Assembly (NCBI GenBank): GCA_023666335.1
Contig: JAMPCE010000016.1
Coordinates: 1 to 57,274 of the forward strand
Direction of reading: 5' to 3'
DNA length: 57,274 nt
From: a bacterium
GTDB lineage: Bacteria > Bacillota > Clostridia > Lachnospirales > Lachnospiraceae
The notes under the pieces are model-generated. The model made no database searches, was not told where the DNA came from, and saw only the letters and a program-made list of their open reading frames with translations. This document shows positions 17,887 to 57,086 of the stretch, one piece after another. The stretch's first letter is position 1, and every line of letters starts with the position of its first letter. The position numbers and the translations under genes were made by a program.

Positions 17887-17922
17887 AATACGTTTTCCTC
17901 ATTTATAAAGTTTATAGATAGG

Positions 17923-18171
17923 CGTTTGCGAAACTCATTCATGGTTATTGAAATTTGCAAATATAGCGTCAATGTGTAGTGTGCGGCTTGCCGTATCCGC
18001 AGACAGACTCTTGGAGGCCGTCAGCACTTAACGAAGTCATTTTGAGTTTAGTGCTGCTACGGCTGGAATGAAGCGCAAGCGGGTCTGGCAGCGGATATGG
18101 TATGCTGCACACGGCAGTCATTTATACTATATCTTGTAAATTTTAGCATATATTTTGTGTTTTTGCAAAGG
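17923..18171. repeat. Structured intergenic element, copy 1 of 3
   Basis: About 249 bp fill most of the 419-bp gap between parE and the response regulator gene. The ends are inverted (GCGTTTGCGAAACTC at left; at right GTTTTTGCAAAG). An outer helix pairs 17980-18008 with 18083-18111 over nearly 29 bp. An inner helix pairs CAGCACT (18022-18028) with AGTGCTG (18050-18056). A conserved core, TGGAATGAAGCGCAAGCG, lies at about 18064-18081 before the closing GTCTGG. It holds no ORF of note. Copies 2 and 3 are at 54001 and 55134. Beyond the element, 18172-18250 is plain AT-rich sequence. Confidence 0.8.
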
Positions 18172-18250
18172 GTAAATACAAGATACAGTATTATTTTCTA
18201 TATCATTTGAGAGAAAAACAAAAAAACTTTAAATCTTTTTATGCGGTATG

Positions 18251-53754: not shown

Positions 53755-53971
53755 GCTCTTTTTCACGATGTTTCTCACGCAGATTCGTGATGCTGCCGTC
53801 TTTCTCCACGATGGAGATGTTATCGAGCTGACCTTTTAAATTTGCCCGCACGTTGGCAACGTACGCCTGCCGCAGCGCCGCCTGCTCCTCTTTCTCCTCG
53901 TCAGTCAGCCCTTCCGCCTGCGATTTGTGGTATAATTCGTTGATCCGTTTTGTCATTTCCGCGACGTTCAT
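53735..53971 (-). CDS. DUF896 family protein (YnzC-like)
   Basis: This 78-residue helical protein with MNVAEMTKRINELYHKSQ, LTDEEKEEQAALRQAYVANV and LKGQLDNISIV is the canonical DUF896/YnzC sequence, a two-helix coiled protein of unknown function (YneA-linked in Bacillus). GAGG 6 nt before the ATG at 53971 decides the start. The second structured repeat begins 30 bp upstream of it. Confidence 0.92.
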   Translation of the reverse strand: MNVAEMTKRINELYHKSQAEGLTDEEKEEQAALRQAYVANVRANLKGQLDNISIVEKDGSITNLREKHREKEHGNDKA

Positions 53972-54000
53972 GCGATTCCTCATTTCTGAGCGACCTTAGA

Positions 54001-54221
54001 CGTTTGCAAAACTCTTCTCAGTACTGTGATTATTGTGCAAATAGTATAGCCATAAGCAGACCCTTGAAAATGTGGTAAATTCCTACGGAATTAACCACGT
54101 CAGTGCTTAATGAGGTTTTTCACGAATTTAGCACTGTTACGCTTGGAATGGAGCGAAAGCGCGTCTGCGTTGGTTATGCTATTTGTACAATTTCAACAAA
54201 CACAAAGGAGTTTTGCAATCG
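54001..54221. repeat. Structured intergenic element, copy 2 of 3
   Basis: The 221 bp fill almost all of the gap between the DUF896 gene and proB. Ends: CGTTTGCAAAACTC at left; at right GAGTTTTGCAATCG, its near inverse. The outer helix pairs 54033-54061 with 54163-54190. Hairpin P2 covers 54072-54098 (GTGGT, AATTCC and complements). P3 pairs CAGTGCT (54101-54107) with AGCACTG (54130-54136). The conserved core TTGGAATGGAGCGAAAGCG follows. P2 is missing from copies 1 and 3. Confidence 0.85.
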
Positions 54222-54232
54222 CCTATCTTGCT

Positions 54233-55099
54233 CTATTTGTCATACAGATGAAGCTGCTGCACATAGAGGGGCAGGTCGAAGTTCTCATCCTTATGCGAAA
54301 GGAACAGGGTGCCGATGTTCTGCCCGTCGAGAATCCTGTGGATCACCTTGATGTCCTTACTGTTGGCGATGACCATATCGACCCCGGTGCTGCCCGCGAT
54401 CTTCGCCGCCTGTAATTTGGTCGTCATGCCGCCGGTGCCGACGCTGCTTCCGGTGGACGCCTTGCCCATATTCATCAGTTCGTCCGTCAGCTCCTCCACC
54501 ACTTCGATATAAGTCACGTCAGGGTTCGTTCGGGGATCGTCGGTATAAAGCCCGTCGATATCCGATAACAGCAAGAGCATATCCGCCTCGACCAAAGAGG
54601 CGACGATGGCGGAAAGCGTGTCGTTGTCACCGATCTCGATCTCGTAAGTGGCAACGGTATCGTTCTCGTTCACAATGGGGATCACCCCCAGCTTAAAAAG
54701 TTCCGCGAAAGTGTTCTTTGCATTATAGCGGTTCAAGTTATCCACGACCGTATTTTTTGTCATCAGAATCTGTGCCGCCACCTGATTATACTCGGCAAAG
54801 ATCTTCTGGTACGTCATCATCAGCCTTGCCTGCCCCACGGCGGCGTAAGCCTGTTTGACGGCGATCGGATTATCCCCCGCCTCGCGGTTTGCGGACACGG
54901 CTTTTTCGCCCAGCGCGATCGCCCCCGAAGTCACGAGCACCACGTCTTTTCCGCGGTTTCGCAGATCGCACAGCTCACGCACCAGCACATCCAGCTTCGT
55001 ATAATCCAGATCCCCCGTCTCCTTGTGCTGCAAAGAGGAGGAACCAATCTTTACAACGATTCGTTGTTTATTCTTTAATATGTCTTTTCTGTCTATCAT
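54233..55099 (-). CDS. proB: Glutamate 5-kinase
   Basis: This 288-residue kinase phosphorylates glutamate in the first step of proline synthesis. Visible motifs are RIVVKIGSSSLQ (residues 13-24), LVTSGAIALG, IPIVNENDTVATYEIEIGDN and STGSSVGTGGMTTKLQAAKI. The C-terminal PUA domain of the long form is absent, as in short Firmicutes ProB. AGGAT precedes the ATG. Structured repeats flank it on both sides: copy 2 after its stop and copy 3 upstream, 35 bp before its start. Confidence 0.96.
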   Translation of the reverse strand: MIDRKDILKNKQRIVVKIGSSSLQHKETGDLDYTKLDVLVRELCDLRNRGKDVVLVTSGAIALGEKAVSANREAGDNPIAVKQAYAAVGQARLMMTYQKIFAEYNQVAAQILMTKNTVVDNLNRYNAKNTFAELFKLGVIPIVNENDTVATYEIEIGDNDTLSAIVASLVEADMLLLLSDIDGLYTDDPRTNPDVTYIEVVEELTDELMNMGKASTGSSVGTGGMTTKLQAAKIAGSTGVDMVIANSKDIKVIHRILDGQNIGTLFLSHKDENFDLPLYVQQLHLYDK

Positions 55100-55133
55100 A
55101 CTTTTATCCTATCTTTGTTCTTTTCGTCTGAAT

Positions 55134-55360
55134 CATTGCGAAACTCATCTCAATACTATGATTATTGTGCAAACAACATAACCATAAGCAGACCCTTGCA
55201 GAACGTTGGTACTTGACGAGGTTTGGAGTTGCTGCGCAACTAAAGTTGCACGGCAGCTCCCGAGTCTAGTACCACTACGTTCGGAACGGAGCGCAAGCGC
55301 GTCTGCGTTGGTTATGCTGTTTGTACAATTTCAACAACCACGAATGTGTTTCGCAAATAC
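55134..55360. repeat. Structured intergenic element, copy 3 of 3
   Basis: The 227 bp fill the gap between proB and the next gene. Ends: ATTGCGAAACTCAT at left; at right the inverse, in TGTTTCGCAAATAC. The outer helix pairs 55165-55193 with 55301-55328. P3 pairs GGTACT (55208-55213) with AGTACC (55268-55273), with an extra nested hairpin inside (GGAGTTGC with GCAGCTCC, then GCAAC with GTTGC). The conserved core is CGGAACGGAGCGCAAGCG. It lies 10 bp after the stop of the upstream flavoprotein gene. Confidence 0.85.
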
Positions 55361-55370
55361 TTAGCCCCGC

Positions 55371-57086
55371 TTATCTTATCACAGGATGATACGCCGACGC
55401 AAGTTTCTCCGCGATCAAGATTCCGTCCATAGCCGCCGAAACGATGCCGCCCGCATATCCCGCGCCCTCCCCGCAGGGATACAGCCCCCGAATCGCGGAT
55501 TGCCCGGTCTCATCCCGCAGGATGCGCACCGGAGAGGAAGTGCGGCTCTCCACCCCCGACACAAAGGCGTCCCCGTCATCGAAGCCTGGCAAAGAACGGC
55601 CAATCGCGTCGATCCCCTCCACGAGCGCCTGATTCAAGTTTGCAGGCAGGATGTCATGCACCGGAGCAAAGCGCCATTCGCCTTTGATCTCGGGCGCAAA
55701 GCGCGGATATTTTTCATGTAAGATACCTTTTGCCATCTGTCGACACTCTTTTGTCCCTTTGTCGTCCGCTTCTGCTGCGGGCTGCTCTTCCATGTCCTGC
55801 TTTTCCATGCGCTGCTGTCTTTCGGAAACCGCCGCGCGAAAATCTCCGTAGCGCTCCACAGGCACCGCGCCTTTTCCGATCTCATATGCTTTTTCTTCCA
55901 GCCGCCTCTGAAAGGCGACGCCCGCAAGCGGTCCCTCTCCGCCATAATCCGCAGGCGTCACGGTGACGATCATCGCGCTGTTGCTGTTGTTTCCGTCCCG
56001 CCCGCTGTAACTCATGCCGTTTATCGCTGTCCGTCCCGGCTCCGAGGAAGCGTTCACCACATAGCCGCCCGGGCACATGCAGAAAGAGTAGACGCCTCTG
56101 CCATCCGCTGTCTGTGCCGTCACTTTATAGGGCGCCGTCGGAAGAAAGCGCGCATTCTCCCCGTATTGCAGGCGGTCGATCATCTCCCGGGGGTGCTCCA
56201 TGCGAAGCCCCACCGCAAACGCCTTTTTTTCCATAGGCACCGCCTGCGAAAGCAGCGTCTCAAAGGTATCCCTGGCGCTGTGTCCGATGGCAAGGATGAC
56301 AGCTCCGCCCCGGATCGGCTGCCCGTCTGCTATGACACCCGCCGCGCGGCCGTCCTCGATGATCAGAGACTCCGCCTGCGTCTCGAAACGAATCTCTCCG
56401 CCCCAATCCAGAATCCGATTGCGGAGATTTTCCACCACTTTGACCAGAATATCCGTGCCGATATGGGGTTTTGCGTCATAGAGGATCTCCTCCGGCGCGC
56501 CCGCCTCCACAAAGATGCGCAGAACTTCCCGCTGTCTGCCGTTATTATCTTTGACCGATGTAGTCAACTTTCCATCAGAGAAAGTTCCCGCACCGCCCTC
56601 GCCAAACTGCACGTTGGAGGCCGGATCAAGAACGCCCTCCCGCCAGAACCGTTCCACATCCGTAAGCCTTTTATGTACTTCTTTTCCCCGCTCCAAAAGC
56701 AGAGGACGATAGCCCGCTTTCGCCAGAAAATAGCCGCAAAAAAGCCCCGCAGGTCCCGTACCCACGATAATGGGCGGCAAAGGAAGCGGTTTCTCGCCGG
56801 ACGTGACAAATTGATAGGGTTTCTTTTCGACCGCACGAAACTGTCCCTCTTTTCCTTTCAGGCGTTTTAACAATTGCGTTTCGTTCTTTACCTCCACATC
56901 CACGGTATAGACAAAAAAGAGCGCGGGCTTTTTTCTGGCGTCGATGGAACGGCGGACAATGGAAAGATGCAGGATCGCCGCCGCATCGATCCGCAGGAGT
57001 TTTGCGGCGCGCGCCGTAAGCTGCCCCATTTCTGTGTCTGACATTTTTTCTGTGATCGGCAGTTTGATCTGGCTGATCCGTATCAT
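55371..57086 (-). CDS. FAD-dependent dehydrogenase (COG2509-like)
   Basis: This 571-residue flavoprotein has an N-terminal domain of about 95 residues (MIRISQIKLPITEKMSDTE). The FAD motif is PIIVGTGPAGLFCGYFLA (about residues 106-123), then FGEGGAGTFSDGKL, an ILAIGHSARD second motif and a C-terminal GLYPCGEGAGYAGGIVSAAM. Members are annotated as uncharacterised FAD-utilising dehydrogenases; the substrate is unknown. The ATG at 57086 has AGGAAG somewhat far upstream. The longer frame upstream is spurious and covers the end of the neighbouring flavoprotein gene in another frame. Confidence 0.9.
   Translation of the reverse strand: MIRISQIKLPITEKMSDTEMGQLTARAAKLLRIDAAAILHLSIVRRSIDARKKPALFFVYTVDVEVKNETQLLKRLKGKEGQFRAVEKKPYQFVTSGEKPLPLPPIIVGTGPAGLFCGYFLAKAGYRPLLLERGKEVHKRLTDVERFWREGVLDPASNVQFGEGGAGTFSDGKLTTSVKDNNGRQREVLRIFVEAGAPEEILYDAKPHIGTDILVKVVENLRNRILDWGGEIRFETQAESLIIEDGRAAGVIADGQPIRGGAVILAIGHSARDTFETLLSQAVPMEKKAFAVGLRMEHPREMIDRLQYGENARFLPTAPYKVTAQTADGRGVYSFCMCPGGYVVNASSEPGRTAINGMSYSGRDGNNSNSAMIVTVTPADYGGEGPLAGVAFQRRLEEKAYEIGKGAVPVERYGDFRAAVSERQQRMEKQDMEEQPAAEADDKGTKECRQMAKGILHEKYPRFAPEIKGEWRFAPVHDILPANLNQALVEGIDAIGRSLPGFDDGDAFVSGVESRTSSPVRILRDETGQSAIRGLYPCGEGAGYAGGIVSAAMDGILIAEKLASAYHPVIR

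Follow-up and report, generated by a model that had tools for sequence, protein, structure and literature searches.

The three structured intergenic elements described here are most likely non-autonomous, MITE-like transposons that carry a conserved structured RNA. They lie in a stretch of 57,274 nucleotides (the window) from a bacterium of the family Lachnospiraceae, whose genome is referred to as G000, and comprise the following features:

17919..18143, plus strand: copy 1, inserted element with a TIR-like left end (TAGGCGTTTGCGAAACTC at 17919) and no right TIR; delimited by the fold and the flank in relatives
18001..18088, plus strand: copy 1, conserved core (P1, P1b, P2, P3, GNRA hairpin); model R2, 83.1 bits, E 7.1e-20
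18072..18081, plus strand: copy 1, GNRA mini-hairpin A-GC-GCAA-GC-G, from the sequence and the R2 alignment
18144..18175, plus strand: host sequence initially read as the right terminus of copy 1; counterpart in 19 of 29 relatives
53997..54225, plus strand: copy 2, whole element; terminal inverted repeats 53997-54014 and 54208-54225
54054..54168, plus strand: copy 2, conserved core with an extra hairpin at 54072-54098; R2 match 54083-54168, 61.9 bits
about 55129..55363, plus strand: copy 3, whole element; inverted ends about 55129-55148 and 55344-55363
55186..55306, plus strand: copy 3, conserved core with an extended P4 hairpin; R2 86.8 bits, E 7.1e-21

An initial annotation of the window had proposed that the three stretches share one layout, and they indeed fold far better than shuffled sequences (z-scores of -7.4, -10.3 and -10.9 for copies 1, 2 and 3). 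The inner helices are CAGCACT/AGTGCTG in copy 1, CAGTGCT/AGCACTG in copy 2 and GGTACT/AGTACC in copy 3, exactly as read at that time, and the GGAA(T/C)GRAGCGNAAGCG core with its GNRA-type loop is present in all three. The assumed single 29-bp outer helix is instead a long imperfect stem, in which the 60-nt arms form a median of 29 and a minimum of 0 Watson-Crick pairs (110 copies). Inverted ends are found in copies 2 and 3, whose limits are corrected to 53997-54225 and about 55129-55363, but the supposed right end of copy 1, TTTTTGCAAAGG (18160-18171), is host DNA: a counterpart of this flank with at most 6 of 20 letters different lies near the start of a gyrB-like gene in 19 of 29 relatives (one of them, L468, doubtful). 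As these counterparts adjoin the gyrB-like gene, and as in the relatives that have them no core lies between the gene and the conserved flank sequence, the flank belongs to the host, and copy 1 therefore spans about 17919-18143 and has no right TIR. The sole core that R2 detects among the 29 gyrB-like loci (L465:2398-2509, genome G306) lies some 90 bp past the conserved flank sequence, a distance that argues for a separate insertion. The core of copy 2 scores lower than those of copies 1 and 3 (61.9 versus 83.1 and 86.8 bits) because of the extra hairpin that precedes its inner helix. This hairpin is formed by GTGGTAAATTCC/GGAATTAACCAC, and similar modules occur in L002, L006, L014, L016, L023 and L025.

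The term “three-copy family” holds for the window, where the three copies are the only matches at E values up to 1, but not for the genome, in which 85 matches were obtained with the covariance model R1 (150 of 906 first-look candidates scored). R1 was built from 23 copies with a MAFFT alignment made without structure; in a BLASTN search with copy 2 as query, the same genome gave 53 matching pieces. Many additional copies exist in the family as well. R1 matched 23 of 41 genomes, which were 23 of 25 from the genus (G000 included) and 0 of 16 from other families of the order, and within the family it had matches in 91 of 250 genomes and 90 of 249 genera, a lower bound because strict filters were applied. 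Genome G067 was missed by R1 and later matched by the broader model R2, which was built from 110 matches. Across a sample of the class, R2 matched 11 of 391 genomes, all 11 in the family of the window. A pattern scan of named genomes pointed in the 80 loci listed mostly to Lachnospiraceae, Acetatifactor and unclassified Clostridia, and the few pattern matches listed for other taxa, such as Streptomyces (L167) and Microcella (L202), had no R1 match. The named relatives also place the window in Lachnospiraceae, in the lineage of Acetatifactor. BLAST searches of plasmids and phages with copy 2 gave no match, and viral contigs contained one pattern match.

Several of these copies are mobile. At the site of copy 2, next to a proB-like gene, the core is absent in 11 of 11 relatives displayed, with about 1 kb of other sequence at that place in L341, and the site of copy 3 is filled in 1 of 11 relatives displayed (G002). 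Over all 29 proB-like loci, R2 finds the core only in L333 (G002) and in L360, in the latter case away from both sites. In locus L012, the arms form a perfect unrelated palindrome, and the element is absent together with its arms from three relatives; inspection by eye revealed neither a recognised TIR nor a target duplication in this locus. Likewise, copies of genome G106 are absent from congeners, namely L323 from G706 and G707, and L320 from G706. At the corresponding intergenic site in L423 (G705), the orthologue of L323, there is another long hairpin, which has no core match.

The ends of the elements add to this picture. The 61 partly overlapping locus sequences of G000 were resolved into 19 distinct units with TAGG-type ends on both sides, and terminal inverted repeats without a transposase gene characterize these 19 units, but not copy 1 and L012. 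Three of the 19 have a perfect target duplication, 6 reach 8/10 or better and 13 are without a clear duplication; in 2000 random pairings, 0 reached 9/10 and 2.55% reached 8/10. The duplications comprise 10-11 bp in some copies, and 10 bp by eye in some copies of genome G023. With up to 2 mismatches allowed, the end sequence of G023 was counted 126 times on one strand and 137 times on the other, as compared to 0 and 1 times for the control, and 17 of 20 loci taken from the first 100 places listed have the core between CAATGTCATTAAGTTAAG ends. The remaining three comprise a 1.7-kb IS, a single end and an 84-bp spacing. The IS encodes a 436-aa DDE_Tnp_1 transposase, and its transposase motif and the duplications suggest an IS4-type element. 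At E 1e-10, two of the 10 genomes searched, namely G023 itself and G171, contain relatives of this transposase, and G000 and 7 of the 9 others contain none; a partner transposase for the TAGG-type ends of G000 was not found in these searches. Of the six matches, five are IS loci with CAATGTCATT ends, located in G023 and G171, and none of these five loci contains a core detectable by R1 at E values up to 10. R1 likewise found no core in L253, L259 and L261. The G023 loci L244-L249 and L263, in which the end-to-end spacing is 31 bp shorter on the 3' side of the core, have nevertheless spread. For the families with recognisable ends, mobility of the MITE type is evident.

What these elements carry is a fold of defined architecture. 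The core consists of P1 (six pairs) and P1b (two covarying pairs), which together form the closing helix, a long P2-P3 arm, a variable P4, and the hairpin A-GC-GNRA-GC-G, a 2-bp GC stem with a GNRA loop. The P2-P3 arm has a UU/CU bulge and a U-U mismatch, after which 80 of 110 rows show a G-A/G-A step. A GNRA loop is present in 107 of the 110 rows and a GNYA loop in none; of the other three rows, two have a different loop and one a gap. When the 22 rows drawn by a GNAA-requiring pattern are left out, the counts are 85 of 88 and 0. The residue before the GC hairpin is A in 109 of 110 rows, and the hairpin is followed by G in 108 of 110. A second P1 type, in which the closing helix has a tandem G-A step (GGAGCC/GGCGAC-like), was seen by eye in L017, L066, L079, L116 and L118, and in L017, L066 and L118 it sits in a head-to-head pair.

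The compensatory changes that the initial annotation had noticed exceed both shuffled and slid controls. In a structure-blind alignment, 595 of 598 pair cells hold standard pairs, two-sided change is seen at 11 of the 26 pairs, and double changes occupy 69 cells, as compared to a shuffle mean of 21.8; when the partners are shifted by one to three columns, pairing falls to 21-38%. Further pair types are fewer than in shuffles (16 versus 22.6), as true pairs use few types. Family-wide, with 69 distinct rows, 97.0% of 1786 cells are paired, two-sided change extends to 23 of the 26 pairs, and 318 double-change cells stand against 77.0 in shuffles, values that lean towards the model because the alignment was fitted to it. 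The annotation had not recognised the family, and Rfam release 15 contains no relevant match either for the window at gathering threshold or for 26 loci scanned at E values up to 10 and 5; a sub-threshold MIR8007 hit on L137 (28.5 versus 195 bits) was the sole one to overlap an element. Near copies, Rfam recognizes an FMN riboswitch (L004:121-267) upstream of one element and a TwoAYGGAY RNA (L030:1145-1311) close to another.

The fold is strand-polar. G-U pairs outnumber A-C combinations in the core (64 versus 36, with 18 of the A-C at one pair beside a bulge), and G-T outnumbers A-C among the 1x1 mismatches of the arms (70 versus 39), which identifies the strand as written as the folded strand. 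Together with the adherence to the GNRA rule, this polarity suggests that the core acts as RNA. Could it be the folded single-stranded DNA that is functional, recognised at replication or excision by a transposase or an HUH enzyme in the way of REP/REPIN or attC sequences? We consider this fairly unlikely, although G-U makes up only 2.4% of the canonical pairs, which is low for RNA and would suit DNA, and although the arms are palindromic, the element also folds well as DNA (z -7.3) and GCGNAAGC forms a very stable mini-hairpin in DNA, too. The purine at loop position 3 in 107 of 107 GNNA loops follows a rule of RNA, and the 10-11-bp duplications at fixed ends in G023 (by eye) and in three G000 units as well as the spread of L244-L249 and L263 despite their shorter spacing speak against such a mechanism. 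The arrangement of neighbouring copies, which would fit the DNA hairpin, is reminiscent of REP pairs, as closely spaced copies of opposite orientation (gap up to 500 bp) are placed head-to-head in 13 cases and tail-to-tail in 0, with 18 further close pairs in tandem; these counts are complete for the G000 list and certain loci with two hits, hand-picked from partial lists elsewhere, and include tandem arrays several times. In G020:C206 (L104) and in G150:C59, C41 and C21 (L312-L314), two to four cores follow one another as direct tandem repeats with a period of about 130-190 bp. Some elements are situated within REP-like palindromes of the GTTACTATTCACGGC and GTAACAGTTCAGCC types, which recur from locus to locus (L091, L098 and L101 in G023; L300 and L301 in G155).

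The core is found between CAATGTCATT ends in G023, between TAGG/AGG..TTGCGAAAC-like ends in G000 and, by eye, in G228 and G171, and between yet other types of ends, also by eye, in G150, G091 and G242. As the same core occurs between unrelated ends, it has the appearance of a passenger module. One could go further and regard it as an independent RNA-based module, possibly a new ribozyme or a protein-guiding RNA, that resides in several unrelated transposon types across one family and needs a trans-encoded host factor, but this extended version seems doubtful to us.

The arms behave differently from the core. In 14 distinct copies of G106, mean core identity is 0.87 and arm identity 0.58-0.59, as compared to 0.43 for shuffled arms, and the complementarity of the arms inside a copy is 0.80. 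The G106 arms are thus related sequences that diverge fast and keep their pairing. This difference between pairing inside a copy (0.80) and likeness between copies (0.58) would also be expected of a neutral palindrome, in which template switching during replication corrects the arms of a MITE and so maintains their complementarity, and the core is merely young and functionless; two-sided changes with few G-U intermediates would agree with it as well, and the low G-U share would suit arm-to-arm templated correction. Such correction could not conserve loops, however, and it is the unpaired positions (GNRA, the flanking A and G, the tandem GA) that are conserved over 97 loci, whereas paired positions vary; with the same core being present between different ends, we regard a neutral palindrome as improbable.

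Other origins of the arms were considered. An insertion of cores into pre-existing palindromes, or a copying of host flank as arms, was discarded for L012, whose arms are missing from three empty sites, and for L323, which is absent in G706 and G707. Arms that are freshly random at each insertion would not retain the residual similarity seen in G106 (0.58 versus 0.43 for shuffled arms, 14 copies). Some G106 copies may still lie in terminator-like outer palindromes: in L320 and L450, the outermost arms resemble by eye the stem of a rho-independent terminator with a T-run, as if the element were placed in the terminator loop.

With regard to neighbouring genes, each Pfam family is limited to at most 3 of the 106 ORFs adjacent to 56 loci (best 25 of 154 families), and no cis partner gene was found among the commonest 25 of these 154 families. 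Orientation counts, which rest on crude ORF calls, gave for G000 24 loci antisense to both neighbours and 7 sense (of 45), for named loci outside G023 18 and 8 (of 38), and for the young copies of G023 8 and 8 (of 25). In 76 further loci, 28 were antisense and 21 sense, with 13 versus 3 in congeners (of 21) and 15 versus 18 in other genera (of 55). Grouped by kinship, G000 and its congeners reach 37 to 10 (p 1e-4) and other genera 15 to 18 (p 0.73), and the antisense bias is therefore a feature of this genus, neither of G023 nor of the family at large. An age-driven bias was dropped, as the pooled comparison with G023 yielded p 0.27 and the recount by kinship limits the bias to the genus. Since other genera and G023 lack it, the antisense bias cannot serve as general evidence for an action of the RNA on mRNAs. 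It is very improbable that the copies are domesticated leaders, terminators or sRNAs kept at each locus for gene control: the intergenic placement, the antisense bias in G000 and congeners and the terminator-like palindromes around some G106 copies (by eye) would fit, but sites differ among relatives, no neighbour gene recurs, orientation is unbiased in other genera, and a promoter and terminator scan of window positions 53940-55420 remained at background level.

The initial annotation had envisaged a non-autonomous mobile element, a structured RNA, or both, and the mobility of several copies together with the conserved, strand-polar, GNRA-bearing and covarying structure supports this view. 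The outcomes that the annotation had named as refuting a new structured family did not arise in the genome searches, in the comparison with shuffled and slid controls, or in the Rfam scans of the window and 26 loci. How could a MITE-like transposon with an RNA payload function? Each copy would be a non-autonomous DNA transposon of about 120-240 bp, and a transposase made elsewhere would act on its ends, which in one congener are common to transposase-bearing ISs; an analogous action on the TAGG...TTGCGAAAC ends of G000 may be assumed by extension. The palindrome carries at its tip, as payload, a conserved nucleic-acid fold that is inherited as a module, with the ISs tested having the same ends but no core. 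Once transcribed, the strand as written would fold, and the invariant face, consisting of the GNRA loop, the flanking A.G and the tandem G.A, might dock to a host protein or RNA in trans. We conjecture that there is such a partner and that the core confers a benefit, in that docking could help the element persist, while the arms would be constrained only to pair.

How does this compare to known systems? Like IS4-type MITEs, the elements are short, share their TIRs with a DDE transposase gene (in G023), have 10-11-bp duplications in some copies and reach tens to about 100 copies per genome. Unlike those, they have as their centre a covarying fold that occurs in 90 of 249 sampled genera and is common to unrelated end types. 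REP and REPIN sequences have conserved ends and a variable spacer, an organization not found here, where the apex is conserved and the arms are variable. In being palindromic, intergenic, of high copy number and arranged in pairs and in tandem, the elements do resemble REPINs and BIMEs, which according to the accessible text consist of REP pairs and are associated with RAYT (PMC3116915).

The nearest published concept that we found is the class of mobile/repeat sequence candidates (PMC11109978). Its motif MRSC-65-2, as far as detailed in the accessible text, consists of one long stem with a UYCCGG repeat and occurs in diverse phyla, and it shares with our elements a covarying structure and often dozens of copies per genome; a transposase gene is nearby in some instances, and that text leaves open whether RNA or DNA is the active form. 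Compared by description, our elements differ from it in structure, sequence and range, as they have a branched core and were detected in a single bacterial family. IStrons combine a group I intron with an IS, again according to the accessible text (PMC4227781). They thus likewise represent a structured RNA carried by a DNA transposon, which for our elements would apply if they act as RNA; our elements are far smaller and have no group I intron match in the Rfam scans. HEARO and OMEGA guide RNAs are structured RNAs tied to mobile elements and occur in many copies. Here, in contrast, the loci scanned gave no Rfam HEARO match, and IscB/TnpB nuclease genes are absent from the commonest 25 of the 154 neighbour families (106 ORFs, 56 loci). 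A description of the core element was not found in the openly available journal literature searched, including the accessible text of PMC11109978 and PMC8632094.

The elements thus constitute an abundant and strongly covarying nucleic-acid family without a match in the scans of Rfam release 15, and the models and alignments will ease the annotation of copies. They are a clean case of a conserved fold that is common to transposons with unrelated ends, and this provides a testable handle on the question whether MITEs carry functional RNA. Lachnospiraceae are common in the gut, and the core may be an unrecognised RNA that is spread among them by transposons.
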